The position numbers were made by a program, and so were the translations under genes. Under the pieces are notes generated by a model. The model was given only the letters and a program-made list of their open reading frames with translations. It was not told the DNA's origin and ran no database searches. A stretch of DNA of 55,716 bases from a virus. Position 1 is the stretch's first letter, and each line of letters starts with the position of its first letter. Positions 976 through 40,236 of this stretch are shown here, one piece after another. The stretch lies in IMG/VR virus record IMGVR_UViG_3300025127_000047, positions 1 through 55,716 of that record; one strand, written 5' to 3'.

Positions 976-3909
976 ATGGCAACATATGTAAATGATTTAA
1001 GATTAAAAGAAATAGCAACTGGTGATGAGTCAGGTACTTGGGGTACTTCCACAAATACTAACTTAGAATTAATTGCAGAAGCATTTAGTTATGCAACTGA
1101 AGCTTCTTTTGGTAGTGATGCAGATGCAACAACTACTATAGCTGATGGTGCTACAGACCCAGCAAGAAGTTTATATTTTAAAGTAACTTCTGGTGCTAGT
1201 TTAACAGCAACTAGAACACTTACTATTGCACCAAATACAGTATCTAAAGTTTGGATTATAGAAAATGCAACTTCAGGTTCACAATCAATTAACATATCCC
1301 AAGGTAGTGGTGCTAATGTAACTATACCTAATGGTGATGTAAAAGTAGTTTATTCAGATGGAGCAGGTTCAGGAGCAGCAGTTGTTGATGCTTTTACTGA
1401 TATAAATTTATCAAGTGTTTCAAATATAAATGGCGTATCTATTCTTGCTGATACTACAAACTTTACTAATAGTATTTTAATAAAACAAGATACAACTACA
1501 GGTACTTTATCAAGTGCTAGTAGCAATACAGGTCTAGGTGATAGCGTATTCTTAAATCTTACTTCTGGTACTAATAACACAGGAGTTGGTACTGATGCTT
1601 TATTAGCTGTTACTACAGGTACAGAAAATACTGTAATGGGTAAAGGTGCTGGTGATGCAATCACAACTGGTGGCTATAACACAGCTGTAGGAACAGATGC
1701 ATTAGGAGCTAACACAACAGCAACTTTTAACACAGCCATAGGCAGAAATGCTTTATTAGTTAATACAACAGGTGGTTCTAATGTCGCTGTTGGTGGTCAA
1801 GCACTAGATGCTAATACAACAGCTTCAAACAACACCGCAGTTGGAACTTCTGCTTTAAGTGCGAATACCACAGGTGCAGGTAACGTGGCTGTTGGTGGTA
1901 GTGCTTTAGCAGCTAACACTACTTCTGATAACAATGTTTCAGTTGGATATGATGCTCTTGCATCTAATACTACAGGTGGACCAAATACTGCAGTTGGTAA
2001 AGGGTCTTTAAATGCAAACACAACTGGAGATAATAATACTGGTTTAGGTAGAGCAGCTTTAGGTAATAATACTACAGGCGGTAATAACACAGCAGTCGGT
2101 CATTTTGCTTTATTAACAAACACTACAGGTTCTGAATTAGTTGCTGTTGGTAAAGGTGCTTTAGATGCTAATACCACTGGTGCTAATATGGTAGCTGTTG
2201 GTAATAATGCTCTTGGTGCTAATACAACAGGTGTTCAACAAGTAGCTGTTGGTGATGGTGCATTAGCTGCAAATACTACAGGTAATTATAACCACGCTAT
2301 AGGTCAAGGTGTTTTAGATGCTACAACAACAGGAAGTAACAATACAGGTTTAGGTGCTTATGCACTTTCAGCTAATACTACAGCAGATAACAATACTGCT
2401 GTTGGTTATCACGCATTGCTTGACAATACTACAGGCACAGATAATGTGGCTATGGGTGTTTTGGCACTTGAAAATAATACGACAGGAACCAATAATGTTG
2501 GTTTGGGTAGAGAAGCTCTAGGGGCAAATACCACATCCAGTAACAATACAGCAGTTGGTTATCAGGCTTTATTAGTAAATACTGGTACTGATGGTAGAAA
2601 TAATACATCAGTAGGTACTTCATCAATGGATGCTAATACATCTGGTAAAAATAATGTAGCAGTTGGACATGATGCTTTAGGTGCCAATACCACCGCAGAT
2701 AATAATACAGCAGTAGGTAAAGATGCCTTATTAGCAAACACTACAGGAACACCAAACACAGCAGTTGGTCAAAATGCTTTAGCAGCAAATACAACAGGTG
2801 GTTCAAATATTGCTATGGGTAAAGGTGCATTAGATGCTAATACAACTGGCGGTAGTAATACAGCTATAGGTACTGATGCATTAACAGCTTGTACTACAGG
2901 CTCTAGTAACGTAGCTGTGGGTAAAGGAGCTTTAGTAACTTCAACTACACAAGGTACAAACGTAGCAGTTGGATTCCAAGCAGCACAAGATGTAGTTACA
3001 ACTGGAATTACAGCTATCGGTTATCAATCTTGCTTAAATACCACAACAGGTTACGATAATTCTTGCGTTGGTACTAATACTATGTTTTCAAATACTACAG
3101 GACATAGTAACGTAGCTGTTGGTTATCATGCTATGTATTCTAATTCTACAGGACTTTATAATATTGGTATCGGTGCTGCTGCTTTAGATGCCGCAACTAC
3201 CGCAAATAATAACGTAGCTGTCGGCTATACCGCACTTACAGACTGTACTACAGGTACAGGTAATGTTGCTATTAGTATTGCCGCACCAAATATTACTACA
3301 GGAAGCGATAATGTTGCTATAGGTTCTGAAGCTATGGAAGATGCAACAACGGCTTCTGATAATACTTGTGTAGGCAGATTAGCAGGACAAAGTTTAACTT
3401 CTGCTACTAACAACTTATTGCTTGGACACCATGCAGGTAGGTCAGATTCACCAGGAGGTAATTTTACTACACATAGTAATAGAATTAATCTTGGCGACAA
3501 CAGTATTATTGAAGCAGCAATTAAAGTTTCTTGGACAGTTACATCAGATAAAAGAGATAAAGCAGATGTTGAGCCATTAAAAATGGGATTAGATTTTGTA
3601 AATAAATTAGAACCTGTTACTTATAGATGGGATATGAGGTCAGATTATAGTCTTGATTTAGATATAACTCCTGATGGAACTCATAAAAAAGCAAAACTAC
3701 ATGGTGGTTTATTAGCACAAGATGTGGAAGAACTTGAAAGAGATTATGGGTATAAAGTAGAAAATGAAACTTCTATTGTTACAAGTAAAAATGCAGATGG
3801 TAATTATGGATTACAATATGAAAAATTTGTACCTATACTCATAAATGCAGTAAAAGAACTTTCATCACAAGTAGATGAATTAAAAGCTAAATTAAACGAA
3901 GGAGAATAA
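976..3909 (+). CDS. Tail fibre/spike with YadA-like repeats and S74 intramolecular chaperone domain
   Basis: A 977-aa fibre protein. Residues 1-180 form an N-terminal domain probably used for virion attachment. Residues about 185-830 are dozens of 15-17 aa repeats of the type ANTTGxNNTAVGxxAL, like the trimeric left-handed beta-roll head repeats of YadA/Hep_Hag adhesins. The C-terminus (about 850-977) matches the Peptidase_S74 / endosialidase chaperone: a SDKRDK start after VTS, then LxPVTYRW, LLAQDVEEL, and a final coiled coil. In that family the chaperone trimerises the fibre and cuts itself off at the conserved Ser. Likely the host receptor-binding fibre. Receptor unknown. Confidence 0.85.
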   Translation: MATYVNDLRLKEIATGDESGTWGTSTNTNLELIAEAFSYATEASFGSDADATTTIADGATDPARSLYFKVTSGASLTATRTLTIAPNTVSKVWIIENATSGSQSINISQGSGANVTIPNGDVKVVYSDGAGSGAAVVDAFTDINLSSVSNINGVSILADTTNFTNSILIKQDTTTGTLSSASSNTGLGDSVFLNLTSGTNNTGVGTDALLAVTTGTENTVMGKGAGDAITTGGYNTAVGTDALGANTTATFNTAIGRNALLVNTTGGSNVAVGGQALDANTTASNNTAVGTSALSANTTGAGNVAVGGSALAANTTSDNNVSVGYDALASNTTGGPNTAVGKGSLNANTTGDNNTGLGRAALGNNTTGGNNTAVGHFALLTNTTGSELVAVGKGALDANTTGANMVAVGNNALGANTTGVQQVAVGDGALAANTTGNYNHAIGQGVLDATTTGSNNTGLGAYALSANTTADNNTAVGYHALLDNTTGTDNVAMGVLALENNTTGTNNVGLGREALGANTTSSNNTAVGYQALLVNTGTDGRNNTSVGTSSMDANTSGKNNVAVGHDALGANTTADNNTAVGKDALLANTTGTPNTAVGQNALAANTTGGSNIAMGKGALDANTTGGSNTAIGTDALTACTTGSSNVAVGKGALVTSTTQGTNVAVGFQAAQDVVTTGITAIGYQSCLNTTTGYDNSCVGTNTMFSNTTGHSNVAVGYHAMYSNSTGLYNIGIGAAALDAATTANNNVAVGYTALTDCTTGTGNVAISIAAPNITTGSDNVAIGSEAMEDATTASDNTCVGRLAGQSLTSATNNLLLGHHAGRSDSPGGNFTTHSNRINLGDNSIIEAAIKVSWTVTSDKRDKADVEPLKMGLDFVNKLEPVTYRWDMRSDYSLDLDITPDGTHKKAKLHGGLLAQDVEELERDYGYKVENETSIVTSKNADGNYGLQYEKFVPILINAVKELSSQVDELKAKLNEGE
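1520..3435 (+). repeat. Degenerate in-frame 45-51 bp repeats of the fibre shaft
   Basis: About 1.9 kb of imperfect tandem repeats coding for the TGxNNTAVGxxALxANT unit. Codons differ from copy to copy while the peptide pattern holds, so the repeat is selected at protein level. It may still recombine to change shaft length. Confidence 0.8.
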
Positions 3910-3910
3910 T

Positions 3911-4198
3911 ATGGCACAAACAGTAAGCGAAGTCTTAACATCAGCTATGGATAGCGTAACATTAATAAATAATATTAATACCAATGCTTCTGCTGTAGCA
4001 GAACTTGCAGGTTTATCACAATCTGAAATTAATGATGTAGTAAGCAGAAACGTAGAACATTTAGAAACTATTTTAACTTATGCACCTGTTGATTCAGATG
4101 ACCCTAGACCTAATGTAGTAGGTTCATCTAGTAGTAAAAAAACTGATTGTACTAATGCTATTAATACAGGTAAAGCTTATATAGCAGCAAATAGTTAA
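3911..4198 (+). CDS. Hypothetical small phage protein downstream of the fibre
   Basis: A 95-aa protein whose ATG follows the fibre stop by 1 nt. The first two-thirds look helical (SEVLTSAMDSVTLINNINTN). The last third is polar and includes a lone Cys in KKTDCTNAI. No signal peptide or membrane segment. Similar small proteins occur next to S74 fibres in marine phages, from memory, but no function is known. A role in fibre assembly is only a guess from position. Confidence 0.6.
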   Translation: MAQTVSEVLTSAMDSVTLINNINTNASAVAELAGLSQSEINDVVSRNVEHLETILTYAPVDSDDPRPNVVGSSSSKKTDCTNAINTGKAYIAANS

Positions 4199-4200
4199 TC

Positions 4201-4416
4201 ATGGCAAATAAAAAAGAAACTGTTGAAATTGAATTAACACCTCAACAGCAAAACATACAGTTACACATCAATAGTTTAACTAAAAAAATATCACAACATC
4301 AGTTTGAAATTGATGAGCTTATGCCTAGTTTAAATATGTATCAAGAAGCTTTGGCAGAAAGCATGAAAGAGCAAGTTAATAATAATCCAAAGGAGGATAA
4401 AAATGACAACAATTAA
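4201..4416 (+). CDS. Small coiled-coil protein
   Basis: A 71-aa, highly charged protein predicted to be mostly coiled coil (residues about 12-60, QQQNIQLHINSLTKKISQH). The tail is Asn/Lys/Asp-rich. It starts 2 nt after the previous stop and overlaps the next small membrane gene by 14 nt. No catalytic features. Function unknown. Confidence 0.6.
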   Translation: MANKKETVEIELTPQQQNIQLHINSLTKKISQHQFEIDELMPSLNMYQEALAESMKEQVNNNPKEDKNDNN

Positions 4417-4564
4417 TGTATTAATGTGGGTAACTGCAATTATATCTATAGCTTCTGTTATAGCAGCAATAACACCAACTCCAAAAGATGACCATTGGTT
4501 TAGTTACTTGTATAAAGTAATTGACTGGTGTGCATTAAATGTACTTAAAGCAAAGGACAAATAA
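4403..4564 (+). CDS. Small single-pass membrane protein
   Basis: A 53-aa ORF with a strong Shine-Dalgarno (AAAGGAGG, ending 7 nt before the ATG). Residues about 5-24 (VLMWVTAIISIASVIAAI) form one transmembrane helix, followed by a PTPKDD turn and an amphipathic tail. It overlaps the previous gene by 14 nt and shares one base with the next ATG (TAATG). Marine phages often carry such small membrane proteins. Role unknown. Confidence 0.6.
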   Translation: MTTINVLMWVTAIISIASVIAAITPTPKDDHWFSYLYKVIDWCALNVLKAKDK

Positions 4565-4740
4565 TGAGTTGGTTAGAAAAAATGTGGAGCAAAGTTACTG
4601 GAACTGAAAAAGTAAAAGTAAGAGCTAGAAATAAAAAAGGACATTATGTAGCTGATGATAAATCAACACCAAATGTAGATGAAGCTTGGACTACTAAAAG
4701 AGTAAAGAAAAAGAAAAACTTTACTGATAATAGTGGCTAA
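4564..4740 (+). CDS. Small basic hypothetical protein
   Basis: A 58-aa, Lys-rich protein (MSWLEKMWSKVTGTEK..., then KRVKKKKN near the end). The ATG overlaps the previous stop codon and the 3' end overlaps the nuclease gene by 8 nt. This tight packing supports translation. No recognised domain. Confidence 0.5.
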   Translation: MSWLEKMWSKVTGTEKVKVRARNKKGHYVADDKSTPNVDEAWTTKRVKKKKNFTDNSG

Positions 4741-5113
4741 ATCTCCTGATGCGTTTGTTTATAACGCTACATTAGAACGAATTGTAGATGGAGACACATT
4801 TGATTGTTGTCTTGATTTAGGCTTTGATGTAAGGCTACATAAACAGCGTGTTAGACTTGCAGGTATTGATACACCTGAAAGTAGGACTAGAGATTTAGCA
4901 GAAAAAAAATTAGGTCTTGCTGCAAAAGAAAGACTTAAAGAACTTTGTACAGGAAAAATAAAAGTTAAATCTTTAGGCAAAGGAAAGTATGGTCGTATAT
5001 TAGGCATACCTTATACAGAAGATGGCAAAGATATTTGTAAATTATTAATTAAAGAAGGTCATGCTGTTGAATATCATGGAGGAAAAAAAGTTAAAGTTTG
5101 GGGTGATTATTAA
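4733..5113 (+). CDS. Staphylococcal nuclease-like (SNase/TNase) protein
   Basis: A 126-aa thermonuclease-family protein (SNase fold, OB barrel). Visible motifs are RIVDGDTF near residues 12-19, RLAGIDTPE near 41-49 with the catalytic Arg and Asp region, and GKYGRILG near 84-91 with the second catalytic Arg. Family members cut DNA and RNA with Ca2+. No signal peptide is seen, so it probably acts in the cytoplasm unless exported another way. The chosen start is GTG at 4733, overlapping the previous gene; no strong Shine-Dalgarno is visible, so the exact start is uncertain. It opens the curli-type gene cluster, and its stop shares a base with the next ATG (TAATGG). Confidence 0.85.
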   Translation: MAKSPDAFVYNATLERIVDGDTFDCCLDLGFDVRLHKQRVRLAGIDTPESRTRDLAEKKLGLAAKERLKELCTGKIKVKSLGKGKYGRILGIPYTEDGKDICKLLIKEGHAVEYHGGKKVKVWGDY

Positions 5114-5463
5114 TGGAGTCAGCCGTTACTTTAATTCAAGAAGTTGGATTTCCTATTGCAGCCGCACTTGGTCTTGGTTGGTTTATTTATAAACTTATTA
5201 TGCGTATTGTTGATGGTATGGAAACTAAATTAGATACTGTTGATGAAAAAGTAGAATCACAAATAGCAGCAATAGAAGAACGATTAGGTACAAAACTTGA
5301 TGCACAACACGGCATTTTAGTAGCATTGATAGATAGAGTTCGTAGTTTAGATAACGAAATTATAAGACAAGATACTTTAATAAAAACAATATTAGGAGTA
5401 CCTAATTTAATTGATAGTGGAAAAATAGCAAAGGCAGGTAGAGATGACCAAAGAAAAGACTAA
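5113..5463 (+). CDS. Membrane-anchored coiled-coil protein
   Basis: A 116-aa protein with one N-terminal membrane helix (residues about 12-32, GFPIAAALGLGWFIYKLIM) and then a long coiled coil (about 35-90, METKLDTVDEKVESQIAAIE). The tail ends in RDDQRKD. Its ATG overlaps the nuclease stop, and it overlaps the CsgF-like gene by 20 nt. Topology resembles phage spanin-like or holin-accessory proteins, but no lipobox or Rz signature is visible. Function unknown; probably acts at the inner membrane together with the next genes. Confidence 0.65.
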   Translation: MESAVTLIQEVGFPIAAALGLGWFIYKLIMRIVDGMETKLDTVDEKVESQIAAIEERLGTKLDAQHGILVALIDRVRSLDNEIIRQDTLIKTILGVPNLIDSGKIAKAGRDDQRKD

Positions 5464-5926
5464 TATTTGGATATATAGAATAGCATTTGGCTTACTTGTT
5501 TTATTTGGATTGCTTATATTAACTAATCCTTTATGGGCAGACCAAATAGTACACAAGTTTAAATCTCCTAGCTTTAGTGGCATTGGAACATCAAGTCATT
5601 ACCTTACAATAGAAAATCAACAATATACTAGAAAGCTTACAATTAAAGAAGAAATAAAAGCTTTGCAAGAAGAAATAGAAAGAGAAAAAGAAAATTCAAC
5701 TCTCGCAAGATTTTTGCGTAATTTAGAGTCTAGGGTATATGCAGAATTATCAAGACAACTTGTAAATAATCTTTTTGGCGAAACACCATCTGACTCTGGA
5801 ACTATAACATTAGAAGGAAACACCATTGAATATACAAGTGATGGTGTAACATTAACATTAAAAATAACGGAAGCCGATGGAACAGTTACTGAAATTACGA
5901 TACCTATTGGTACTTTTTTGTTCTAG
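5444..5926 (+). CDS. csgF: CsgF-like curli assembly protein
   Basis: A 160-aa exported protein. Residues about 11-32 form a signal sequence (IYRIAFGLLVLFGLLILTNPLWA) with probable cleavage after LWA. The mature start reads FKSPSFSGIGTSSHYL, matching the CsgF N-terminal pattern (FxNPxFGG) that inserts into the CsgG pore in E. coli. A helical part follows (about 60-105, with LESRVYAELSRQLVNNLFG), then a C-terminal beta part (EGNTIEYTSDGVTLTLKI..., ending VPIG-like). This order matches CsgF. In bacteria CsgF sits outside the outer membrane on CsgG and guides curlin nucleation. It overlaps csgG by 50 nt, which strengthens the call. Confidence 0.85.
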   Translation: MTKEKTNIWIYRIAFGLLVLFGLLILTNPLWADQIVHKFKSPSFSGIGTSSHYLTIENQQYTRKLTIKEEIKALQEEIEREKENSTLARFLRNLESRVYAELSRQLVNNLFGETPSDSGTITLEGNTIEYTSDGVTLTLKITEADGTVTEITIPIGTFLF

Positions 5927-6749
5927 CTGTTCTATATTTAATCAGATTGAAGATACTTATGAACATAGGTTTCAAAAACATAATGTAGTTAATATATCTG
6001 AATTACAATCACAAGAACTTGCTAATGTACCAAAACCAAAAATAAAACCAGTTGTAGCTGTATATCCTACAGCTTTTACAGACCAAACAGGTCAGCGTAA
6101 AAGTAATAGTGAGTTTGCTTTATTTAGCACAGCTATAACACAACAACCTAACGCATTACTTATACGAGCTTTAAAACACGCAGGTAATGGTGATTTTTTT
6201 ACAGTAGTTGAAAGAGTAGGTTTAGATAATTTAACAAAAGAAAGACAGTTAATAAGGTCAGCTAGAGAACAATCTGTATCAGATGAAGAAAAGAAAAAAC
6301 AATTAAGACCTTTATTATTTGCAGGAGTTTTAATCGAAGGTGCTGTTATTGCCTATGAAAGCAATCTTTCTACAGGAGGTGTTGGGGCTAGATATTTAGG
6401 TATTGGCTCTAGTATTCAATATAGAGAAGATAGCGTTACAGTAACCTTACGCATGGTATCAGTAGCCACAGGTGAAATACTTATAGAAGTAATGACTGAA
6501 AAAACTATATTTAGTTATGGTAAATCAGAAGATGTATTTCGTTTTATTGAAATGGGCACAGAGCTTGTTGAAATTGAATTGGGTAATTCAAGGAACGAGT
6601 CAACAACATTAGCACTTATGAAAGCTATAGAAAGTGCTGTGTTGGAAATAATTAATGTCGGATACGACAGGAGTTTTTGGAAATATGAAGAAAATAAAAT
6701 TAATAAGCCTGATTGTGATGATGAGTGCATTGCCAACATACGGGGCTGA
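5877..6749 (+). CDS. csgG: CsgG-like curli secretion channel
   Basis: A 290-aa homologue of CsgG, the nonameric outer-membrane lipoprotein pore that secretes curlin. A short signal sequence ends in a lipobox-like LFCSSC (lipidated Cys probably 18). Family landmarks in order are VAVYPTAFTDQTGQ (60-73), FSTAITQQPNALLIRALK (83-100), VVERVGLDNLTKERQLIR, LLFAGVLIEGAVIAYESN, GGVGARYLGIG (167-177), VTLRMVSVATGEIL, TIFSYG and VFRFIE, ending NVGYDRSFW. These track E. coli CsgG closely and at full length. At the constriction the eyelet Phe appears kept (F83), while the E. coli Asn beside it is Leu here. It overlaps csgF upstream and the curlin-like gene downstream. A phage-encoded CsgG is unusual. Confidence 0.93.
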   Translation: MEQLLKLRYLLVLFCSSCSIFNQIEDTYEHRFQKHNVVNISELQSQELANVPKPKIKPVVAVYPTAFTDQTGQRKSNSEFALFSTAITQQPNALLIRALKHAGNGDFFTVVERVGLDNLTKERQLIRSAREQSVSDEEKKKQLRPLLFAGVLIEGAVIAYESNLSTGGVGARYLGIGSSIQYREDSVTVTLRMVSVATGEILIEVMTEKTIFSYGKSEDVFRFIEMGTELVEIELGNSRNESTTLALMKAIESAVLEIINVGYDRSFWKYEENKINKPDCDDECIANIRG

Positions 6750-7416
6750 TAATGAAATTTATGTAGACCAATCTGGTACTGGTGCTAATATAGACCTAGA
6801 ACAACTAGGTATATCTAATATTATAGGAGGTTTAAATTCTACAGCAGGTAGTCTTAATCCTTTTGATTTAGATGGTAATAGTATGACACTAGATATTAAT
6901 ATGATTGGTGCAACTAATAAGTTTCTTGGTGATATATATGCTGATAACTTTACAGGATTTTATCAATTTACCGGTGGTACAAATTCTTTTACAATTCAAG
7001 TAGACCCTACAGATTCATACAGTTCAGATGGCTCTAATCAAAATGTAGCTGTTACTGGTAGCGGTAATACTTTTACATTAAATCAAGGAACATCAGCTAT
7101 AGCTGCATCACTAGATTTAGATTGGATAATACAAGGCTCTAATAACACAGTTACTTCAAATATAAATATTGATGGTGCAACTAACTATATGGATATAGAT
7201 GGTTCTGATAATACAGTTACTTATACAGGTACTGGAGTCAATGCATCAGCAGGTGGATATTTTTGGTTAGACCATACTGGAGGTTCAAGAACATTTAATA
7301 TTTCACAATTAAGTACCCAAGATAATGACTGGCTTAAAATCATATCCGTTTCTGGCACTTCTGCTTCTACTGTTTGCGTCATTCAAAACGACCAAGGTAC
7401 AAGCACAAGCTGCTAA
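6685..7416 (+). CDS. Secreted curlin-like repeat protein
   Basis: I start this at the ATG giving a clear signal peptide (MKKIKLISLIVMMSALPTYG, cleavage near YGA-D), which makes 243 aa; an ATG 30 nt upstream would hide it. The mature N-terminus has a curlin-type repeat, N-x5-Q-x-G-x2-N-x5-Q-x-G-x2-N (NEIYVDQSG, then IDLEQLGISN). Later segments show looser GSxNTxT turns typical of beta-solenoids, for example near residues 120-190. Two Cys lie near the C-terminus. Placed directly after csgG, it is the likely substrate of the pore. Bacterial CsgA/CsgB are shorter with five clean repeats, so this is a diverged relative at best. The gene overlaps csgG by 65 nt. Confidence 0.7.
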   Translation: MKKIKLISLIVMMSALPTYGADNEIYVDQSGTGANIDLEQLGISNIIGGLNSTAGSLNPFDLDGNSMTLDINMIGATNKFLGDIYADNFTGFYQFTGGTNSFTIQVDPTDSYSSDGSNQNVAVTGSGNTFTLNQGTSAIAASLDLDWIIQGSNNTVTSNINIDGATNYMDIDGSDNTVTYTGTGVNASAGGYFWLDHTGGSRTFNISQLSTQDNDWLKIISVSGTSASTVCVIQNDQGTSTSC

Positions 7417-8443
7417 TATTGGAGATATATCAGAACTTAATGGTGTAGCTCAAATAGTAAGAGATAAGCCTTATGAAGCTAATTTAAAATTTGCTATACA
7501 AAGTAATGATGAAGCTATTACTACGAATGGTAGAATGGCTATTACTTTTTTAGATGACTCTGTTGTAAAACTTACAGAACATTCACAATTATTAATTGAT
7601 GAATATATTTATGACCCAGACCCAAGTAAATCTAAAATGGCTATTACTTTTGGTTTGGGCACAGCTAGGTTTATAACTGGTAACTTAAACCGCATAGATA
7701 AACAAAACATATCTCTTAAAACACCTACAGCAAATATAGCTATTAGAGGTACAGATTTTACAGCTACAGTAGATGAATTAGGTCGTAGCCTTATAATACT
7801 TCTACCAGATGCTCTAGGGCTTTCTAGCGGTGAAATAGAAGTAGTTACTGCTATGGGTACTGTTGTATTAAATAAACCTTATGAAGCGACTACAGTAAGC
7901 GTATTTGAGTCTGCTCCAACTAAACCTGTAATATTAGATTTAACTTTAGATGTAATAGACAATATGCTTATTGTTACACCACCTAAAGAAGAAGTATTAG
8001 TAGAAGAAGAAAGTACATCAACTAAAACAGATAGTGTATTAGATTTTAATGATTTAGATATAGATTATTTAGCAGAAGATTTTTTTGCAGAAGATAATTT
8101 AGAATATACAGAACTTGATATAAATTATTTAGATGTAAATTATCTTGAAGATTTATTAAATGTTTTAGATGCTTTAGCTATTAAAGAAGATGAAGATGCT
8201 TTAGCTGAAGCTACAAGTACACAAATAACAGGAACACTATTAGGTAAAGACCCAGATACACAAATAACTACATTAATAACAGGTAATGTTATAAGTTTGC
8301 GTAGAAGTGTTAATGAGTCAGTAAGGTTAGATTTAGATGGAAGTAACGCTTATACAGTAATATTTATACAAGATGGTATATCAAATGTTGTAAAAATTAA
8401 TGGAGGAAGTGATAGCACTATTACTATTACTCAAAGTGATTGA
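7325..8443 (+). CDS. Secreted FecR-domain protein with C-terminal curlin-like repeat
   Basis: A 372-aa exported protein. The signal peptide is residues 1-27 (PFLALLLLLFASFKTTKVQA). Residues about 30-195 form a FecR domain: GVAQIVR, then DDSVVKLTEHSQLLIDEY, LGTARFITG, and KTPTANIAIRGTDF, the classic FecR core. A long acidic linker (about 225-290) follows. The C-terminus (about 330-372) shows IFIQDGISNVVKI and ITITQSD, a Q-x-G-x2-N spacing like curlin repeats. FecR domains in periplasmic proteins often sense or bind surface structures. FecR genes next to CHASE2 cyclases are, from memory, a recurring bacterial pair, and that pairing is seen here. Overlaps the curlin-like gene by 92 nt and the cyclase by 4 nt. 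Confidence 0.8.
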   Translation: MTGLKSYPFLALLLLLFASFKTTKVQAQAANIGDISELNGVAQIVRDKPYEANLKFAIQSNDEAITTNGRMAITFLDDSVVKLTEHSQLLIDEYIYDPDPSKSKMAITFGLGTARFITGNLNRIDKQNISLKTPTANIAIRGTDFTATVDELGRSLIILLPDALGLSSGEIEVVTAMGTVVLNKPYEATTVSVFESAPTKPVILDLTLDVIDNMLIVTPPKEEVLVEEESTSTKTDSVLDFNDLDIDYLAEDFFAEDNLEYTELDINYLDVNYLEDLLNVLDALAIKEDEDALAEATSTQITGTLLGKDPDTQITTLITGNVISLRRSVNESVRLDLDGSNAYTVIFIQDGISNVVKINGGSDSTITITQSD

Positions 8444-10200
8444 TGAAAAAATTAATAATACCAATACTTATAATATTAAGTTTGCCTATTTTATTTCAAT
8501 CAACTCCAACAGAAATAATAAAATTAAAAACATTTGATGCTTTAATAAAAACACCAGAGCCATCAGGTAATTTTGTGATACTTAATATTACAGAAGAAGA
8601 TGTAGAACAAGAGGGTGGTTATCCATTACCAAGACAAAGACTTGCTGAAATACAAATGGAGCTTATAAGCAAAGGAGCTTTAGGTGTAGGCTGGGTTATA
8701 TCATTTCCTCAACCAGATAGAATGGGTGGAGATGAAACTTTTGCAAGGTCTTTAGGATATGCACCATCTGTAATAGCTATGTTTGAAGATAATAAAGGTA
8801 GTTATCCAAAAGCAACAGGCACAGTTATACTTGGAAAAAATAATGGTGGTATAATTAGTTTGGGAGTGAAGGAAAACCTATCAACATTATCCTCTCACAC
8901 ACTACAAGGGTTAGCCATTGCTCCCACTGATGTAGACCAGCTTGTAAGAAGAATACCTCTTTTAGTTAAAACACCTGATAATGAATGGATACCTAGTTTT
9001 GGTACACAAATATATAAAGCTTTATTTAATGTAAAAACTTACATTATAAAAACTAATGATAATGGTATATCAGAAATATCAATAAGAGGAATACCACCAG
9101 TTAAAACAGATAGTCTTGGTCGCAAGTGGATTAGTTGGATAAATACAGAACAAACCACTTTAAAAGAAATGAATGTAAATGGTAAGTTTGTATTTGTAGG
9201 TGTAACAGCTAACGGAGTAATGCCACAAATAGCAACACCAGTTGGATTATTAGAGCCACATAAAATACAAACAGCATTAGCAGAAAGTATATTAATACAA
9301 GATAGTCCTTATATACCTGACTGGGCAATAAGTATTAACTTGTTAATATTTATATTAAGTGTTGTTATTGTTTGGTTTGTATTATTTTATTTTGGCATAA
9401 CATGGGGAATAGTATTAAGTTTATTATCTATGTTTACTACAGCTAGTATAGGTTATTACTTTATACAAAAAGGTTTATTAATTGATGTTACTTGGAGTTT
9501 AATATCTCAATTTGTAACAGGAGCTATAGCTTTTTATCTTAGATTTAGAGAGCAATATAAACTTAGACAACAAATTAAAAAACAATTTGAACATTACCTT
9601 GACCCAAGACAAGTTAAACAACTTCAAGATAATCCAGAATTACTTAAATTAGGTGGAGAAAGAAAGTATTGTACTTTTCTTTTTACAGATGTAAGAGGTT
9701 TTACTAGCTTGTCAGAAAAATTAGAACCAGAAGAAGTAACAGAAATTATGAATAAAGCTTTAACCATACAAGCTAATGCTGTTAAAAAATATGGTGGTAT
9801 GGTAGATAAGTATATTGGTGATGCAATGATGGCTATATTTAATGCACCTATAAATATAGATATGCATGAAGATAGAGCTATACTTACAGCTATAGAAATA
9901 AAAAAACAAATGCAAGAAGCTAATCTTAATATTAAAATAGGTATAGGTATAAATAGTGGAGATGCTGTTATTGGAAATATGGGCTCTGAAACTAGATTTG
10001 ATTATACAGCTATAGGAGATGCAGTAAATTTAGCAGCAAGAATGGAAAGCAGTTGTAAAGAAGTAGGAGAAGATATAGTAATAGCAAAAAATACTGCAAT
10101 ACAAACAGATATAAAATTAGAAAAATTAAAACCTATTAAAGTAAAAGGAAAAGAAAAAGCAATAGAAATTTATACTATACAAGGAAACGAACATGGATAG
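8440..10200 (+). CDS. CHASE2-domain membrane adenylate cyclase (class IIIb)
   Basis: A 586-aa cyclase. An N-terminal helix (about 3-20) precedes an extracytoplasmic CHASE2 sensor domain (about 25-280), then three membrane helices (about 287-365), then a cytoplasmic class III cyclase domain (about 400-580). Catalytic residues are visible: metal-binding D417 (FTDVRGF) and D461 (DKYIGD), purine-binding K457, and transition-state N530 and R534 (AVNLAAR). The second purine-binding position is T523 rather than Asp, the mark of subclass IIIb, whose members include bicarbonate-responsive enzymes. All key residues are present, so it should make cAMP. ATG overlaps the FecR-gene stop by 4 nt. A full-length sensor cyclase is very unusual in a phage. 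Confidence 0.92.
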   Translation: MMKKLIIPILIILSLPILFQSTPTEIIKLKTFDALIKTPEPSGNFVILNITEEDVEQEGGYPLPRQRLAEIQMELISKGALGVGWVISFPQPDRMGGDETFARSLGYAPSVIAMFEDNKGSYPKATGTVILGKNNGGIISLGVKENLSTLSSHTLQGLAIAPTDVDQLVRRIPLLVKTPDNEWIPSFGTQIYKALFNVKTYIIKTNDNGISEISIRGIPPVKTDSLGRKWISWINTEQTTLKEMNVNGKFVFVGVTANGVMPQIATPVGLLEPHKIQTALAESILIQDSPYIPDWAISINLLIFILSVVIVWFVLFYFGITWGIVLSLLSMFTTASIGYYFIQKGLLIDVTWSLISQFVTGAIAFYLRFREQYKLRQQIKKQFEHYLDPRQVKQLQDNPELLKLGGERKYCTFLFTDVRGFTSLSEKLEPEEVTEIMNKALTIQANAVKKYGGMVDKYIGDAMMAIFNAPINIDMHEDRAILTAIEIKKQMQEANLNIKIGIGINSGDAVIGNMGSETRFDYTAIGDAVNLAARMESSCKEVGEDIVIAKNTAIQTDIKLEKLKPIKVKGKEKAIEIYTIQGNEHG

Positions 10201-10405
10201 ATTATTAACTGTAAGAGATGTAGCTGAAGATTTAGCTGTATCAAAAAAAGAAAATGAAGAAAGATGGAAAACAGCTTTTAATGAGTTTTCAGATATTAAA
10301 CAAGAAATAGGTAGTATTAATAACACAATGCGAATGGCAACCTTTGGAGTATTTGGATTTCTTGGTGCTTTAGCTATCGCAGTAGTAACGAGTATGTTGG
10401 TATAA
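10193..10405 (+). CDS. Small tail-anchored coiled-coil protein, likely lysis accessory
   Basis: A 70-aa protein. Residues 1-45 are charged and helical (VRDVAEDLAVSKKENEERW). Residues about 48-70 form one C-terminal membrane helix (ATFGVFGFLGALAIAVV). It overlaps the cyclase gene by 8 nt and precedes the holin by 2 nt. The layout recalls XhlA-type holin partners and other small phage lysis helpers, but similarity is only structural. Probably an inner-membrane partner of the holin. Confidence 0.55.
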   Translation: MDRLLTVRDVAEDLAVSKKENEERWKTAFNEFSDIKQEIGSINNTMRMATFGVFGFLGALAIAVVTSMLV

Positions 10406-10407
10406 AA

Positions 10408-10887
10408 ATGAAAGGATTATTAAAAAATATAGTTGGTGCAGTAGCTCCTACACTTGGAACAGCAATAGCAGGACCAATGGGTAATATGGCTTTAGGCAAA
10501 ATAGCTGAAGTATTAGGTTGTTCAGCAGACCAAAAATCTGTGCAAAAAGCTGTACAAAATGCAACACCAGAACAAATGTTACAGTTAAAAAAAGCTGAAC
10601 AAGAGTTTGAAGTACAAATGAAAGAGCTAGATGTAGATGTTTTTAAACTTGAAGCACAAGAAAAACAACACGCAAGAAGTATGTTTAGTAAAGATTGGAC
10701 TGCTCGTATTATTGGTTTGGTAACTATAGCTGGATTTCTTGGATACATATTTTTAGTAACACTACAACCACCAGAACAAAACTCTGAAGCACTTATAAAT
10801 TTAGTGCTAGGTTATTTAGGAGGATTAGCAAGTGCAATTATTTCGTTCTATTTTGGAGCATCTAATTCCAGTAACAAAGGAGAATAA
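10408..10887 (+). CDS. Holin (3TM phage/GTA type)
   Basis: A 159-aa membrane protein. An N-terminal Gly/Ala-rich hydrophobic segment (about 6-34, IVGAVAPTLGTAIAGPMG) is followed by a charged coiled coil (about 45-88), then two membrane helices: DWTARIIGLVTIAGFLGYI and INLVLGYLGGLASAIISFYFG. This matches the 3TM holin family seen in gene transfer agents and marine phages, from memory. It ends KGE just before the lysozyme gene, and holin plus endolysin adjacency supports the call. It would permeabilise the inner membrane to time lysis. Confidence 0.8.
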   Translation: MKGLLKNIVGAVAPTLGTAIAGPMGNMALGKIAEVLGCSADQKSVQKAVQNATPEQMLQLKKAEQEFEVQMKELDVDVFKLEAQEKQHARSMFSKDWTARIIGLVTIAGFLGYIFLVTLQPPEQNSEALINLVLGYLGGLASAIISFYFGASNSSNKGE

Positions 10888-10888
10888 A

Positions 10889-11332
10889 ATGGAAACATCA
10901 CAAGAAGGATTATCTTTAATTAAAAAGTTTGAAGGTTGTAAACTTGAAGCTTATAAATGTGCTGCCGGTGTTTGGACTATAGGATATGGAAGTACTGATG
11001 GAGTAAACGAAGGTATGAAAATATCCCAAGAAAGAGCAGATATGTTATTGCTTGAAGATGTAGAAGTATTTGAAGAAGCTATAAATAAACTTGTAAAAGT
11101 AAATTTAGAACAAAATCAATTTGATGCTCTTATATCATGGACATTTAATCTTGGAGAAACTAATTTAAAAAACTCTACTTTATTAAAAGTATTAAACAAT
11201 AAAGATTATGAAGGAGTTCCTGCACAAATAAAAAGATGGAATAAAGCAGGTGGTAAAGTATTACAAGGTTTAATAAGAAGACGAGAAGCAGAAGCCTTAC
11301 TATTTGAAGGCAAAGAATGGCATGAGGTATAA
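10889..11332 (+). CDS. Endolysin, GH24 T4-type lysozyme
   Basis: A 147-aa muramidase. I use the ATG at 10889 because an AAGGAG Shine-Dalgarno lies 7 nt upstream; an earlier in-frame ATG sits inside the holin gene. The catalytic pattern E-x8-C-x5-T is seen at E15 (KKFEGC), C24 and T30, followed by IGYGST. GH24 enzymes use E-x8-(D/C)-x5-T; the Cys form is known in phage P1 lysozyme. Later landmarks are QFDALISWTFNLG and the C-terminal RRREAEALLF. No signal or SAR anchor is visible, so it depends on the holin. Cleaves peptidoglycan for release. Confidence 0.93.
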   Translation: METSQEGLSLIKKFEGCKLEAYKCAAGVWTIGYGSTDGVNEGMKISQERADMLLLEDVEVFEEAINKLVKVNLEQNQFDALISWTFNLGETNLKNSTLLKVLNNKDYEGVPAQIKRWNKAGGKVLQGLIRRREAEALLFEGKEWHEV

Positions 11333-11334
11333 CT

Positions 11335-13203
11335 ATGCCGTTTGCAAAGTTTGAATTTAAACCCGGAATAAACAAAGAAGGAACTAATTATTCTAATGAA
11401 AATGGTTGGTTTGATGCTGATAAAATTAGATTTAGAAAAGGCAGACCAGAAAAAATAGGTGGTTGGGAAAAATATACTTCTAATACTTTTATAGGAACTT
11501 GTAGAAAAATTCATGTATATAGTGATATAGAACAAACTAAATATAAAATATTAGGCACACATAAAAAACTTTATGTACTAGAAGGAGATATATATAACGA
11601 CATAACTCCTATCAGAAGTACAACATCTGCAGGAGATGTAACTTTTGCGGCAACTAATGGAAGCTCAACAATTACAGCAACCGATACTTCTCATGGTGCA
11701 GTAGCAGGAGACTTTGTTACATTTAGTGATGCTGCTACTTTAGGTGGCAATATTACAGCAGCAGTTTTAAATCAAGAATATGAAATAGTTTCTATACCTA
11801 GTTCTAATACATTTACATTTATAGCTAAAGATACAAGCGGAACTGAAGTAACTGCAAACAGTAGTGATACTGGTAATGGTGGTAGTTCTACAGTAGGTGC
11901 TTATCAAATTAATGTAGGCTTAGATGTTTTTGTATCATCAACAGGTTGGGGTGTAGATTCATGGGGTGCAGGAACATTTGGTTCATCAACAGCTTTATCT
12001 TTAACTAATCAATTAAGATTATGGACTATAGATAATTTTGGAGATGATGTTATAGCAGCACCTAGAGGTGGACCTTTATATTACTGGGACGAGTCCAGTG
12101 GTTTAGGAACAAGAGCAGTATTAGGTAGTACTAAAAGTGGTGCAAGTGATACGCCAGTAGCAATATCTCAATTATTAATGTCAGATGTTGACCGCCATGT
12201 TATAGCTTTAGGTTGTAATCCAATAGGCTCATCTACGATTGACCCATTATTAGTTAGATTTTCAGATGCAGAAAATGCAGTAGATTGGACACCGACAGCA
12301 ACAAATTCTGCTGGTGGCGTAAGGTTATCTACAGGTAGTTTAATTGTAGGTGGTTTACAAACAAGACAAGAAATACTTATATGGACAGATGTGGGCGTAG
12401 TTTCTATGCGTTTTGTTGGACAACCTTTTATATTTAGTTTTAATGAAGTAGCAACAGGTATGTCTTTAATATCTCCAAATGCTGCAGCTACTGCAGGTGG
12501 AGTAGTTTACTTTATGGACGATGGAGCTTTTTATCAATATGCAGGTTCTGTTCAAAAATTACCATGTACAGTATTAGATTATATATTTAGTGATTTTAAT
12601 AAAGGACAAGCTTATAAAATTTTTGCAGCACCTAATCCTAAATACAATGAAGTAATTTGGTTTTATCCTAGTGCTAGTTCAACAGAAATAGATAGATATG
12701 TAACTTATAATTATTTAGAAAATAGTTGGAGTATAGGAACAACTAATGATGGTTTTGTTAGAACAGCATGGAATCCAGCATATAGTTTAGATTACCCAAT
12801 AGCTGCTAGTAAAAATGATGACTCTGGTTTAAATTATTTATATAACCAAGAGTTTGGTTGTTTAGCAGATGGAAATGGATTTACTGCTTTTATAGAATCA
12901 TCTGATTTTGACTTAGACCCAGCAGGAGAAAAGTTTATGTTTATGTCTAAGTTAATACCAGATTTAGAATTTAGAAAATCATCTGATACAGGTAACACAG
13001 TAGATTTTATAATTAAAGGTAGAGATTATCCTTTACAAGATTTATCTACATTATCCACAACATCTGTTACACCTAGTTCTACTTTTGCAAATATTAGAGG
13101 TAGAAGCAGACAAAGTGCAATAAGAGTTAGCAATACTAATGGTGATTTTGGTTGGCGATTAGGTGATATAAGATTAGAATTAAGACAAGATGGTAAAAGA
13201 TAA
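11335..13203 (+). CDS. Tail/neck structural protein (phage stabilisation-like)
   Basis: A 622-aa protein starting KFEFKPGINKEGTNYSNE, followed by WFDADKIRFRKGRPEKIGGW. This start is typical of a large structural protein found in many marine podovirus contigs. The rest is beta-rich with repeated aromatic WxxD-type strands and an inserted Ser/Thr/Gly-rich part (about 95-190). It is sometimes compared with the P22 gp10 tail-stabilisation protein, but I cannot confirm this from sequence. It begins 2 nt after the lysozyme stop and overlaps the next gene's start, so virion genes are continuous with the lysis operon. Confidence 0.7.
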   Translation: MPFAKFEFKPGINKEGTNYSNENGWFDADKIRFRKGRPEKIGGWEKYTSNTFIGTCRKIHVYSDIEQTKYKILGTHKKLYVLEGDIYNDITPIRSTTSAGDVTFAATNGSSTITATDTSHGAVAGDFVTFSDAATLGGNITAAVLNQEYEIVSIPSSNTFTFIAKDTSGTEVTANSSDTGNGGSSTVGAYQINVGLDVFVSSTGWGVDSWGAGTFGSSTALSLTNQLRLWTIDNFGDDVIAAPRGGPLYYWDESSGLGTRAVLGSTKSGASDTPVAISQLLMSDVDRHVIALGCNPIGSSTIDPLLVRFSDAENAVDWTPTATNSAGGVRLSTGSLIVGGLQTRQEILIWTDVGVVSMRFVGQPFIFSFNEVATGMSLISPNAAATAGGVVYFMDDGAFYQYAGSVQKLPCTVLDYIFSDFNKGQAYKIFAAPNPKYNEVIWFYPSASSTEIDRYVTYNYLENSWSIGTTNDGFVRTAWNPAYSLDYPIAASKNDDSGLNYLYNQEFGCLADGNGFTAFIESSDFDLDPAGEKFMFMSKLIPDLEFRKSSDTGNTVDFIIKGRDYPLQDLSTLSTTSVTPSSTFANIRGRSRQSAIRVSNTNGDFGWRLGDIRLELRQDGKR

Positions 13204-18012: not shown

Positions 18013-19290
18013 ATGAATATAATAGAACTAGAAGATAACATTAAAGGCTTACCAGATAATAGTTTACAAAATGAAATGGTTAATCCTACTGGTATGTTTC
18101 CACAATACTTAGTTATGTCTGAATTGCAACGCAGACAAGAAATGCGTAAAGACTATCAAGGTCGTATGGCAGCTGAAGAAAAAACTCCTCCGCTTCCATC
18201 TATTCGTGAACAAATGATGGCAGGTATAACTCAACAACAACCAATAATGCAGGATAGCGGCATAGCAGGACTACTACCAGCTCAACCGCAAGGAGCACCA
18301 ATACCACCAACTATGTCCGCTAGTCCTGATGTAATGCCTATGTATGCTGGTGGAGTTGTGCGTATGAATACAGGTACACAAATACCTGATTTGTATGGTT
18401 TAACCACTGAAGAATTAAAATTAGCTGGTTTATATGATGACCCAAATACAGAAGAAGATGAAAGAATAACAAGTTATGAACAAGACATAATAGATTATTA
18501 TAAAACTTTACAAGAAGAACAACCTAAAAAAATAGCAGAAGAAAAAAGATTTGGAGAAGGTTTAAATTTAATGAAGGCAGGTCTTGCATTAGGTACTGCT
18601 GGTACATTTAAAGAGTTAAGTTCAGGATTAGAAAAAACTATAGATAGTATAGATGCAAGTAATAAAGCTATTTCTAAAAAAGAAGATGATTTGAAAAAAT
18701 CTAAATTAGAAAAAGCAAAAGCTATGGCTTCAATAGAAGCTAAAAGAACAGATAGATTAGCAGATTTATCTAAATTAAAAACTGAAAAACAAGCTAAACA
18801 AGCTTTGGCTGATTATTATAAATCTATGGACCCTAAAACTAAACTTAGTGGTCCGGGACAAATAGCTAAAGAAATATTAGATGGTGTATATGGACCACCA
18901 GAAAGTTTAAATATTTATAGAACAACAGATGCAGAAGGAAATGAACTTCCTAAACCAATTATTGATTCTAATAAATTATTAGAATTAGCAGCATCTAAAG
19001 TACCATCAATAGCTTCAGCAGATATTAGAACACTAGGTAGTAAACAAGAAGAACTAGCTAAATTAGTAACAGACCAAATGAGTAAATTTTCAACAATTCA
19101 AGAAGTAATTAATCTTGCAAAAGAAGAAAATATTAGTGAACAAGATGCATACGATAGAATTAAAATGAAAAAAGAACTTGAATTAAGAAAACAATTAGGT
19201 TTAGGTTCAGGAGCAGGTATGTATTCTGGTGGTGTTGTAGGTAAATCTTCTCAAAGTTTTAATGATGTGGTAAAAACCATCAATGCCTAA
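18013..19290 (+). CDS. Virion protein with Gly-Gly-Val motifs
   Basis: A 425-aa protein. The N-terminal third is Gln/Pro/Met-rich and contains MYAGGVVRMNTG (about 111-122), and the C-terminus has MYSGGVVGKSSQSFNDVV. The middle is charged and helical (about 170-265). The (M)xxGGVV motif is common in internal or injected proteins of marine phages, from memory. It overlaps the giant gene by 8 nt, which suggests coupled translation. Probably an injected virion protein; no enzymatic signature. Confidence 0.6.
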   Translation: MNIIELEDNIKGLPDNSLQNEMVNPTGMFPQYLVMSELQRRQEMRKDYQGRMAAEEKTPPLPSIREQMMAGITQQQPIMQDSGIAGLLPAQPQGAPIPPTMSASPDVMPMYAGGVVRMNTGTQIPDLYGLTTEELKLAGLYDDPNTEEDERITSYEQDIIDYYKTLQEEQPKKIAEEKRFGEGLNLMKAGLALGTAGTFKELSSGLEKTIDSIDASNKAISKKEDDLKKSKLEKAKAMASIEAKRTDRLADLSKLKTEKQAKQALADYYKSMDPKTKLSGPGQIAKEILDGVYGPPESLNIYRTTDAEGNELPKPIIDSNKLLELAASKVPSIASADIRTLGSKQEELAKLVTDQMSKFSTIQEVINLAKEENISEQDAYDRIKMKKELELRKQLGLGSGAGMYSGGVVGKSSQSFNDVVKTINA

Positions 19291-22200
19291 GTTTGTTCAA
19301 ACACCTGATGGAATAACACACCAGTTACCTGACAGTGTAACTGACGAAAACTATTTAGAAGAAAAAGAAAGATTTTTAGCTAACTATAATAAACCCCAAC
19401 TCCAAGAAGATTTCACTTCACAACCCCAACCCCAACCTCAATCTGAAATATCTACAGACTTACCCGGTCCTGCATTAATTGGTGCAAGTCTTTTAAGTAA
19501 TCTTGAAAAAAATGATGGAAGATTTTTTGATAGAAGAAATTATACTGAAGAAGATTTAGATAGAAGTGGTTTGTTATTACAAACAAGAGGTTCTTTTTCA
19601 AAATTATTTAGTGAGCAAGATGCTACTTACAATAGATTTAAAATATTAGAACAAATAGCAGAGTTAGAAAATGAAAGATTACAAATTTTATCTAAAGATG
19701 TTTTAACTGAAAAAGATAAAACTAGATTAGTTGAAATAGATAGATTAATAAATGAGGGAGAAGCACCAAATATTTCTGTAGAAGAAGCAGAAAAACAATC
19801 TATAAAAGAAGTTACAGATGCTATACCTTATATTCCTAATCCTGCTTTAATGGGCGACCCATCAGTTTATCAAGCAACTACTCTTAATCTTGCAGAAATA
19901 GAAAGAAATAAAAAACTTGGATTAAAAGATACATTAGCATACGAAACAGATAGAAGGGATAAATCTATAGAATTTCAATCAGGTATAAGATACTCTAAAA
20001 GTTTTGAAGACTTAGCTAGTGCTTCATCTTTTGATGAATCTATGGAAATATTTTTATCTGACCCATTAAGTTTAATGGGACAAGTGTTAGCTTCAAGTTC
20101 AGCACCAATGTCTGTATCTTTAACTTCTGGTGTTGTTGGAACTCTTTATGGGGGTCCAATAGTAGGTGCAGCAGCAACAGGTATTGCTTCTGGTTCAGTT
20201 GATGCAGTTTATTCTTTTACAGAATATATGCAAAAACAAGGTGTTGATATATACAATAATGATGATGTTGTAAAATTTTTACAAGACCCAGAAAAAGTAG
20301 CAGCTGCTAAAAAGTATGCAAGAACAAGAGCAACATTTATAGGTGCTTTTGATGCATTATCTTTTGGCTTAGGCTCTAAAATAATAGCACCTGCTAGAAT
20401 TGGTGGTGCTCATAGTAGAGCATTATTTAATTCATTAGTAGTTCAACCGCCATTACAAGGAACATTAGGTGGAGCAGGAGAATACTTTGCACAATTAAGT
20501 ACTTTAGAAGAAGGAGAGCAAATACGAGTTGGTGAAGTGTTTATGGAAGCTATAGGTGAATTAGCTTTTGCTCCTGTAGAAACAACACTAGCACAAGCAG
20601 GTACAGGATTTGCAGAATATAAAAGAATACAACAAGAAGCAATTCAAGAACAAAGAAAAAGATTTAAAAATTTTGAAACAAATTATGCAAACCTTACCCC
20701 AGAACAACAAAAAGCTATAGATGAAAAAGGTGCAGAAGTTTTTGAAAGAATACAAAATAATAATCCAGATAAATCTATAGAAGAAATTTTAGATTTAACA
20801 TATCAAGAATTACAAACAACCTTTGAAGCTTTTGAAGCTCGAAAAATTATTCAAGAAAATCCACTTGAAGATATTGCATACAATAAACTTGGAACAAGAA
20901 ATGAAGTTGTTTTTAAAGCAAATGAAGACGGAACTTTTAGTGTAGTAATTATAGATGAAAGACAGCCTAATAATTTAAAAATTCTTGGTACTTATAATGA
21001 AAAAGAAAAAGCAGCAAAAACTACTAGAGATTTAAACCATCAAATTAATACTTATGTAAATAGACAAACATTTCAAGAAGATGCAGTAATGCAAAACTTA
21101 AATCTTGATAATGAATTTGTAGAAGATTTTGCAAATGAAATATTAAATACTACTCTTGATGGTATATCTTTTGTAGATTTAGAAAGATTAGGGGTTGCTC
21201 CAGAAACTATAGCTCTTTTAAAAGACATAGCACAAAACGATTACACTGTACCGCCAAGTGTATTAAAAGCAAATTTATCTAAAAAACAATTTGATAAAGT
21301 AATGCAATCAAAAGCAGAAACTTTAAATGCTAAACCTAAAAAATCTATAGCAGGTACAGCTTTTAATACTTTATTAAAAAATAAAAATATTGAAAGTGAT
21401 ATTAATTCAGATAGTTTTAAAAGATTTGGATTGCATTTTGTTGGAGAACAAGATGTAAACAAAATGAGTGTAGCTCAAAAAAGAGTATTGTTTACTTTAT
21501 TAGATAACATACCAGCTTCTCCAGATAAAATAAATTTACCAGATTTTACTCCTAGAACTTTTAGTGTTGATGATTACAACAAAGCAAAAACAGAAATAGA
21601 AAATCAAGGTAAAGCTACATTAAAAATAATACAAGATGCAACAGGATTAAATAAAGTATCTGCAAAAAGAATAATGGAGTACTTTGTTACTGCTGGTTAT
21701 GTTAATAAAAAAGGTAACAAGTTTGAATTTGTTGGAACAGAAAATCAAATTTATAACTTAGATGGTACTCGTAGATTAACTTCAGATATAAATTTAAACA
21801 AAAGAATAAAGCGTATTGAAAAAATACTTGTTAATAATAATAAAATAAATCCAAATGTTCGTTCAAAAATAGCAACTTTTTTAGATGAACTTACAGACCC
21901 TAATATTAGAACAATAGCAGGTGGTAGTTATAATGCTACATTTAATGAAATACTTTATACAATAGATAGAGCAGACTTAAATTTATTAGATAAAAAATCA
22001 GACCAATATAATCCAAAAGAATTTTTAGCTACATATGCTAGATTACAAGGACACGAAAACTTTCATGCATTAGTAGAAGCAGGATTATTTACACAAGAAG
22101 AAATAAATGCACTTACAAAATTTGCAACTAATAAAAAAATAAGTAAAAAATATCAAGAAGCATTACAAAGAAAATTAAAAACAGAAGAAAAATATTCTGA

Positions 22201-31311: not shown

Positions 31312-31522
31312 TTTGCATACTCCTTGCTATTTGAATTAAAAGTTTTGTATCAGTAGATACAAATTGGTCAAAACTCATTTGCGTTGTTTTAATAATCGCA
31401 TTTGAATAATCTTGTATTGATACAGTCCTATCATCTTCTATCACAACTTTAATCTGTGATAGGTTTTCTCTTGATAACAACTGCATAAAACCTAAAATCT
31501 TTCTCTCTATTTCATTTACCAT
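31295..31522 (-). CDS. Small hypothetical protein in recombination operon
   Basis: A 75-aa protein from the Met at 31522 (MVNEIERKILGFMQLLSREN). The preferred start is preceded by AAAGGATTAATATTT, where AAAGGA is the ribosome site. An earlier Met in frame would overlap the nuclease gene deeply. Mixed helix and strand; no motif recognised. Confidence 0.55.
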   Translation of the reverse strand: MVNEIERKILGFMQLLSRENLSQIKVVIEDDRTVSIQDYSNAIIKTTQMSFDQFVSTDTKLLIQIARSMQNEKRS

Positions 31523-31525
31523 AAA

Positions 31526-31541
31526 TATTAATCCTTTAATA
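31526..31541. promoter_or_regulatory. TATTAA-N4-TTAATA palindrome (copy 3)
   Basis: On the minus strand the spacer is AGGA, so it doubles as the ribosome site of the 75-aa gene. It overlaps the stop codon of the PD-(D/E)XK nuclease gene. Confidence 0.55.
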
Positions 31542-40206: not shown

Positions 40207-40220
40207 AAGTTCTCCTTAAA

Positions 40221-40236
40221 TATTAATTGGTTAATA
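40221..40236. promoter_or_regulatory. TATTAA-N4-TTAATA palindrome (copy 6)
   Basis: Spacer TTGG, followed by GATAAGG. It sits between the MoxR gene and the DUF3150-like gene, just before the AAGGAG ribosome site of the latter. Confidence 0.6.

Follow-up and report, generated by a model that had tools for sequence, protein, structure and literature searches.

A curli-type export module joined to a FecR-CHASE2 cyclase pair in a marine podophage

We analysed a virus record from IMG/VR (IMGVR_UViG_3300025127_000047), whose full stretch of 55,716 nucleotides (55.7 kb) we call the window, and focus on a phage-borne locus that resembles a bacterial curli secretion system. The list of open reading frames (ORFs) and profile matches place six overlapping plus-strand genes at 5113-10200, followed by holin-like and lysozyme genes. 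A first-pass annotation made from the letters alone had described five overlapping ORFs here, for CsgF-like and CsgG-like proteins, two exported curlin-like proteins and an adenylate cyclase. All five are present as described, and profiles, PDB alignments and conserved motifs bear out their identities. The true start of the module lies one gene earlier than csgF, at a membrane protein gene (5113-5463, +) whose 116-aa product has one N-terminal membrane segment followed by a coiled coil and which also precedes csgF in relatives.

The next two genes encode the components of a curli pore. CsgF, the adaptor of the CsgG pore (5444-5926, +), matches PF10614 (E=9e-16) and phrog_35372 (E=8e-45), and CsgG, an outer-membrane lipoprotein (5877-6749, +), matches PF03783 (E=1e-51). 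Residues 46-275 of the phage CsgG align with the solved structures of its E. coli counterpart (4uv2, 4uv3 and 6si7; E=7e-49), and the phage protein's lipobox Cys18 is kept in 61 of 62 phage sequences. In bacteria, CsgG forms a nonameric secretion pore. A sequence search of the PDB with CsgF gave no match. Among 62 sequences, the CsgF N-terminus is conserved as F-x-x-P-[SA]-F-x-[GE], with F, P and F present in all 62 and G in 61; we take this motif as the counterpart of FRNPNFGG in E. coli CsgF, the binding stretch that plugs into CsgG. The gate CsgE and the regulator CsgD define the gammaproteobacterial curli type, not the type VIII secretion system as a whole. Neither was matched among the module and neighbouring proteins (the scan took in only some of the small ORFs in the rest of the window), and published phage modules likewise lack both (PMC9599517). 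A 1.5-kb unannotated record titled "Salmonella phage" (OR851715.1) also includes a CsgG gene and is probably a host fragment.

The fourth gene (6655-7416, +; conserved start probably at 6685) encodes a secreted curlin-like beta-solenoid protein that is a probable CsgA/B-type subunit, judging from a signal peptide recognised by eye, its homologues and a structural model. Five of 20 homologues match Curlin_rpt (best E=9e-6). The AlphaFold2 model is all-beta, with a predicted local distance difference test score (pLDDT) of 80 and a predicted template modelling score (pTM) of 0.76. Foldseek pairs it with phage proteins named "Curlin associated" at probability 1.00 and modest E values of about 0.002-0.02, two of which reach template modelling (TM) scores of 0.59-0.68, figures that show resemblance, not function. 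The fifth gene (7325-8443, +) encodes an exported protein with an N-terminal signal peptide, a FecR domain (PF04773, E=2e-9; phrog_37870, E=5e-70), an acidic Leu-rich middle and a curlin-like C-terminus. Around residues 340-371 the latter carries QDGxSNxxKINGGSDSxITITQ, which is conserved in the alignment but gives no significant profile match. Thus, where the first-pass annotation saw two exported proteins with curlin-like repeats, the FecR domain is borne out, while the repeats of the window's own proteins fall below the cut-off or appear only in alignment.

The last gene of the module (8440-10200, +) encodes a CHASE2 class III adenylate cyclase (CHASE2, PF05226, E=1e-25; Guanylate_cyc, PF00211, E=2e-21) laid out as an extracytoplasmic CHASE2 domain, membrane helices and a cytoplasmic catalytic domain. 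The nearest solved catalytic domains are 6fht, 3r5g (CyaB) and 2w01. The class III residue set is present: the two metal-binding aspartates D417 and D461, the base-selecting K457 and the transition-state R534 are found in 62 of 62 sequences, and the transition-state N530 and the base-selecting T/S523 in 61 of 62. The first-pass call of a CHASE2 class III cyclase with its main catalytic residues therefore agrees with both profiles and residue counts. In class III cyclases, Lys plus Thr/Ser selects ATP rather than GTP, and the presence of this combination points to ATP as the substrate and cyclic AMP (cAMP) as the product. In three loci the catalytic domain has diverged while CHASE2 is kept (L084 6373-8136, L111 5388-7145 and L129 11077-12921); the L129 catalytic domain resembles that of the myophage HTVC008M, which suggests domain swapping between phage groups. 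In the cyclase of the methylophage Melnitz (L162 8917-10968), Ser stands at the position of the transition-state Asn, so this enzyme may be inactive or altered.

Downstream, a small membrane protein gene adjoining the lysis genes (10193-10405, +) was seen as an ORF in 38 loci only and probably lies outside the module. The first-pass annotation had placed the module just upstream of holin and lysozyme. The phage lysozyme (10832-11332, +; PF00959, E=9e-51) is secure, whereas the holin-like membrane protein (10408-10887, +) matches GTA_holin_3TM weakly and below cut-off (E=0.006) and also matches phrog_1544 (E=1e-25), a family of unknown function. A promoter and terminator scan of 3800-11500 gave sites without clear excess over shuffled sequences. 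Just 5' of the module, 976-3909 (+) encodes a tail-fibre-like protein of 977 aa that is rich in repeats and has an S74 chaperone domain at its C-terminus.

The source virus has recognisable relatives. No terminal repeats were found in the record. Its terminase is 57% identical to that of 023Pt_psg01 and 55% to that of HTVC027P, its coat protein 64% and 65%, respectively, and its portal-like protein 41-42%. By these sequence relationships, the window is an HTVC023P-type marine podophage grouped with 023Pt_psg01 and HTVC027P. SAR11 is a likely but not proven host on the strength of these phage relatives, because one relative whose terminase is similar, DSL-LC04, has a gammaproteobacterium as its listed host.

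To place the module, we compared 159 other loci from two scans of viral contigs. These loci were chosen by similarity to the window, so co-occurrence rates hold for close relatives and not for all phages, and synteny counts are restricted to loci with enough flank. Starting from the cyclase, csgG is found upstream in 85/85 loci; starting from csgG, the cyclase is found downstream in 104/105. csgG is accompanied by fecR in 113/113 loci, by curlin in 118/118 and by csgF in 104/104. A small membrane gene stands before csgF in all 103 loci with room for it, with one or two copies per module, and in 72 of 82 loci with room the lysozyme gene follows the cyclase at a distance of no more than 3 kb. 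The synteny of the module is thus near-perfect in about 100 viral contigs. The median ratio of nonsynonymous to synonymous substitution rates (dN/dS) is 0.09-0.22 across module genes and neighbours. These values indicate that the module genes are under purifying selection, and their order is near-fixed; together with the profile matches and motifs, this rules out a chance grouping. In two loci (L069 and L072) the cyclase gene is on the strand opposite to the other module genes, a rearranged arrangement.

An assembly artefact, in which a bacterial curli fragment was joined to a phage contig, had been named in the first-pass annotation as what would undo its claim; we regard this as refuted, since two other IMG/VR contigs (L082 and L083) carry tail-fibre-to-lysozyme genes 100% identical to those of the window, diverged viral contigs have the same order, and the isolate genomes of HTVC008M and Melnitz carry the module.

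The first-pass annotation knew of no standard phage module of this kind, and in this it was wrong. csgF-csgG was reported in pelagimyophages, with a proposal of sibling capture (PMC7029224), and a csgFG pore was reported in the methylophage Melnitz, with a proposed role in lysis (PMC9004378). For HTVC023P-type podophages and myophages the order HK - csgF - csgG - csgA/B - FecR - (csgA/B) - adenylate cyclase has been described, HK standing for histidine kinase, and the module is widely distributed in GOV2.0 (PMC9599517). Given these three direct precedents and the HTVC008M and Melnitz genomes, which we confirmed to carry the module, the curli module was already published in 2020-2022 and the window locus adds another member. 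The window shares with the HTVC023P-type module the order csgF-csgG-curlin-FecR-cyclase, one or two small genes in front and the same phage backbone, but lacks the optional second curlin gene (PMC9599517). In HTVC008M and Melnitz, which are T4-like myophages, the order is csgF-csgG-curlin-FecR-(second curlin)-cyclase, preceded by two small genes. Their cyclases, however, are only 35% and 30% identical to that of the window, and their modules adjoin baseplate and tail genes, not lysozyme or lysis genes. Bacterial curli operons (csgBAC/csgDEFG, or alphaproteobacterial csgF-csgG-curlin) likewise have adjacent CsgF, CsgG and curlin-repeat genes, but the phage curlin is more degenerate and the 20 cellular loci examined have neither FecR nor cyclase nearby.

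Two published labels need revision. In PMC9599517 the gene before csgF, of which there are sometimes two, carries a histidine-kinase label and FecR is described as an iron regulator. We find a kinase domain in none of 16 members of the pre-csgF family by Pfam, those of HTVC008M and Melnitz included; the family's proteins are about 90-116 aa long and combine a single membrane segment with a coiled coil. We therefore reject the kinase label, and the mismatch is a labelling problem of the family, not a peculiarity of the window's member. As for FecR, the iron-dicitrate anti-sigma context is missing: no ECF sigma factor or TonB receptor adjoins the gene, whose neighbours are the csg, curlin and cyclase genes, and the protein has an N-terminal signal peptide rather than an inner-membrane anti-sigma topology.

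A different role for FecR is suggested by its neighbourhood in bacteria. A scan of bacterial genomes for the cyclase gave 28 cellular loci and four phage-like contigs. In 16 of the 28 cellular loci a FecR-domain gene lies in the fetched flank, and convincing csg genes were found near none of them. Four of these FecR proteins were inspected; they are about 1240-2050 aa long, with FecR near the N-terminus and Calx-beta, VWA, cadherin/Ig or RTX repeats, and look like secreted adhesin-like proteins. Among 47 alphaproteobacterial genomes with CHASE2, a FecR gene falls within 6 kb of 42 of 113 CHASE2 genes against about 1.3 expected, an approximate expectation that assumes mean genome size, and the figure is evidence of gene neighbourhood rather than function. 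CsgG lies within 20 kb of none of these 113 genes. The pairing extends to other outputs: non-phage CHASE2 occurs in 8 of 79 Pelagibacteraceae genomes, in one of which a CHASE2-SpoIIE phosphatase gene is near a FecR-domain gene (L273 4049-8919), and in the Burkholderia biofilm operon (BiofilmReg) LysM-FecR adjoins a CHASE2-histidine kinase (PMC5192318). Taken together, the alphaproteobacterial pairing, the CHASE2-SpoIIE case and the Burkholderia kinase make FecR-CHASE2 look like a general pair of exported protein and receptor with exchangeable outputs. We accordingly dropped the iron regulator as the leading reading of FecR, since in bacteria the domain pairs with CHASE2 and is in some cases adhesin-like.

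In the window and nearly all viral loci, FecR adjoins the CHASE2 gene, and the phage FecR and cyclase look like a borrowed bacterial sensor pair grafted onto curli. What the phage and bacterial pairs share is an exported protein with a FecR domain whose gene neighbours that of a CHASE2 membrane receptor; the bacterial partner, however, is LysM-FecR or, at several loci, a giant RTX/Calx-beta/cadherin protein, whereas the phage FecR protein ends in a curlin-like segment and belongs to a curli operon. Twenty cellular curli loci, with up to about 9 kb on each side, had no phage-type FecR or cyclase, in line with a report that these genes were not found in bacterial curli operons (PMC9599517). The join of curli with FecR and cyclase therefore looks phage-specific in this sample.

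We also searched 79 genomes of the presumed host family, many of which may be incomplete. In a search that covered class III but not class I cyclases, two genomes had cyclase domains above the family cut-off, with CsgG on the same two contigs, and a third had a sub-threshold match only. Given the strong matches of both cyclases to the phage profile (E=4e-279 and 7e-139), these two contigs are best read as phage contigs. A cyclic nucleotide (cNMP)-binding domain was found in only 4 of the 79 genomes, leaving 75 without, and neither such a domain nor a cAMP receptor was found in the window. Module contigs also sit inside metagenome-assembled genomes (MAGs) labelled Pelagibacter (MED605), Neomarinimicrobiota, Maricaulis and Flavobacteriaceae (L165, L166, L167 and L181). 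We rejected these MAGs as bacterial carriers: the contigs have the gene order of the phages and were read as phage sequence that had been binned with the MAGs; they may be binning contamination or hints of hosts.

Based on these data, we propose that curlin is exported through CsgG/CsgF and that the FecR-curlin protein reports fibre export to the CHASE2 cyclase, a model to which we give an even chance. In this reading the module combines two parts of bacterial origin, an export pore with its cargo and a sensor pair. CsgG and CsgF would form an outer-membrane channel, the type VIII export pore, by which the curlin-like protein would leave the infected cell to make surface fibres or a coat. The exported FecR protein would sit in the periplasm or at the pore and could join or nucleate the fibre; the extracytoplasmic CHASE2 domain would read its state, and the cyclase would then change cytoplasmic cAMP. 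The pore-and-fibre part is well supported by sequence and is firmer than the sensing part, which we infer, as we do fibre formation, FecR contact with fibre and CHASE2, cAMP production and the timing in infection. The adjoining lysozyme suggests late expression of the module, a role in lysis not being proven. Its purpose may be a superinfection coat, sibling capture or lysis timing; surface amyloid, outer-membrane gating and a superinfection block, all raised by the first-pass annotation, are possible.

Several observations weigh against this model. The window's curlin-like protein itself matches Curlin_rpt only at E=0.07, below the Pfam cut-off, with few canonical repeats, and its model has no significant match among PDB folds, the CsgA fibril appearing only at E=3.4. 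The AlphaFold2 model of the FecR protein (pLDDT 41) was too poor to support an interaction and was left unused. Melnitz infections showed no clumping (PMC9004378). The host is placed only through phage relatedness, cNMP-binding domains are rare in its presumed family and absent from the window, and the chance expectation for FecR-CHASE2 pairing is a rough one.

Among the alternatives, it is possible, if less probable than our model, that curlin fibres simply coat or aggregate infected cells for superinfection block or sibling capture, with the cyclase a mere accessory. The pore and fibre gene set is in place, published proposals run along these lines (PMC7029224 and PMC9599517), and this explanation is compatible with the export model, differing only in the sensor arm. 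However, FecR and the cyclase are kept under purifying selection as tightly as csgG, and the absence of clumping with Melnitz counts here as well. A more specific form of the export-sensing model, in which the FecR-curlin hybrid is a checkpoint, the cyclase senses from the periplasm whether fibre export works and, in a host that would lack a class III cyclase of its own, cAMP sets a late step such as lysis timing, we consider doubtful.

It is unlikely that the module is chiefly a lysis-timing pore, in which a gated CsgG/CsgF channel would help to open the envelope, or to depolarise it, shortly before the action of lysozyme. A pore in the outer membrane leaves the inner membrane polarised. The frequent lysozyme neighbour fits such a role, which was proposed for Melnitz (PMC9004378), but the invariably conserved curlin and FecR genes would be left unexplained, and the HTVC008M and Melnitz modules do not adjoin lysis genes. 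Very unlikely, in our view, is an uptake channel, with a CsgG that lacks the CsgE gate admitting large nutrients or siderophores and FecR as iron sensor (PMC9599517; uptake also in PMC7029224): the lack of a CsgE match among the scanned module proteins agrees with it, but FecR has an N-terminal signal peptide, its gene adjoins neither a sigma factor nor a TonB receptor gene, its bacterial counterparts pair with CHASE2 and at some loci have an adhesin architecture, and the conserved cargo favours export. Still less probable is a rise in cAMP, made by the cyclase, that would drive a CRP-type regulator of the host; its catalytic residues are intact and cAMP feeds curli control in enterobacteria (PMC9599517), but the scarcity of cNMP-binding domains in Pelagibacteraceae and their absence from the window make it hard to argue that cAMP from the phage controls a CRP of the host. 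The rewiring of cAMP signalling suggested in the first-pass annotation is disfavoured for the same want of a receptor.

Outside the module, the window holds several other features. The gene at 19283-28132 (+) encodes a large protein of 2949 aa, probably one that is part of the virion or is injected, in which an LPD38 polyvalent-protein domain is combined with a zeta-toxin-like kinase domain (residues 1765-1919). A recombination pair, a Sak-type single-strand annealing protein and a PD-(D/E)XK nuclease, lies at 30640-32409 (-), and a three-gene cluster of a DUF2201 metallopeptidase/VWA protein, a DUF3150-like protein and an AAA_5 MoxR-like ATPase at 38129-41319 (-).

What is new here is the correction of the kinase label, the reading of FecR and CHASE2 as a pair, and the scarcity of cNMP-binding domains in the host family. 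The sensor-pair reading and the dropped kinase label shift the target to fibre-dependent cAMP, away from control by iron or of the CsgD type. The module is present in HTVC008M, which was isolated on Pelagibacter HTCC1062. A five- or six-gene cluster for amyloid export and signalling is kept under purifying selection by phages of the ocean's most abundant bacteria, although the hosts themselves seem to lack both curli and class III cyclases.

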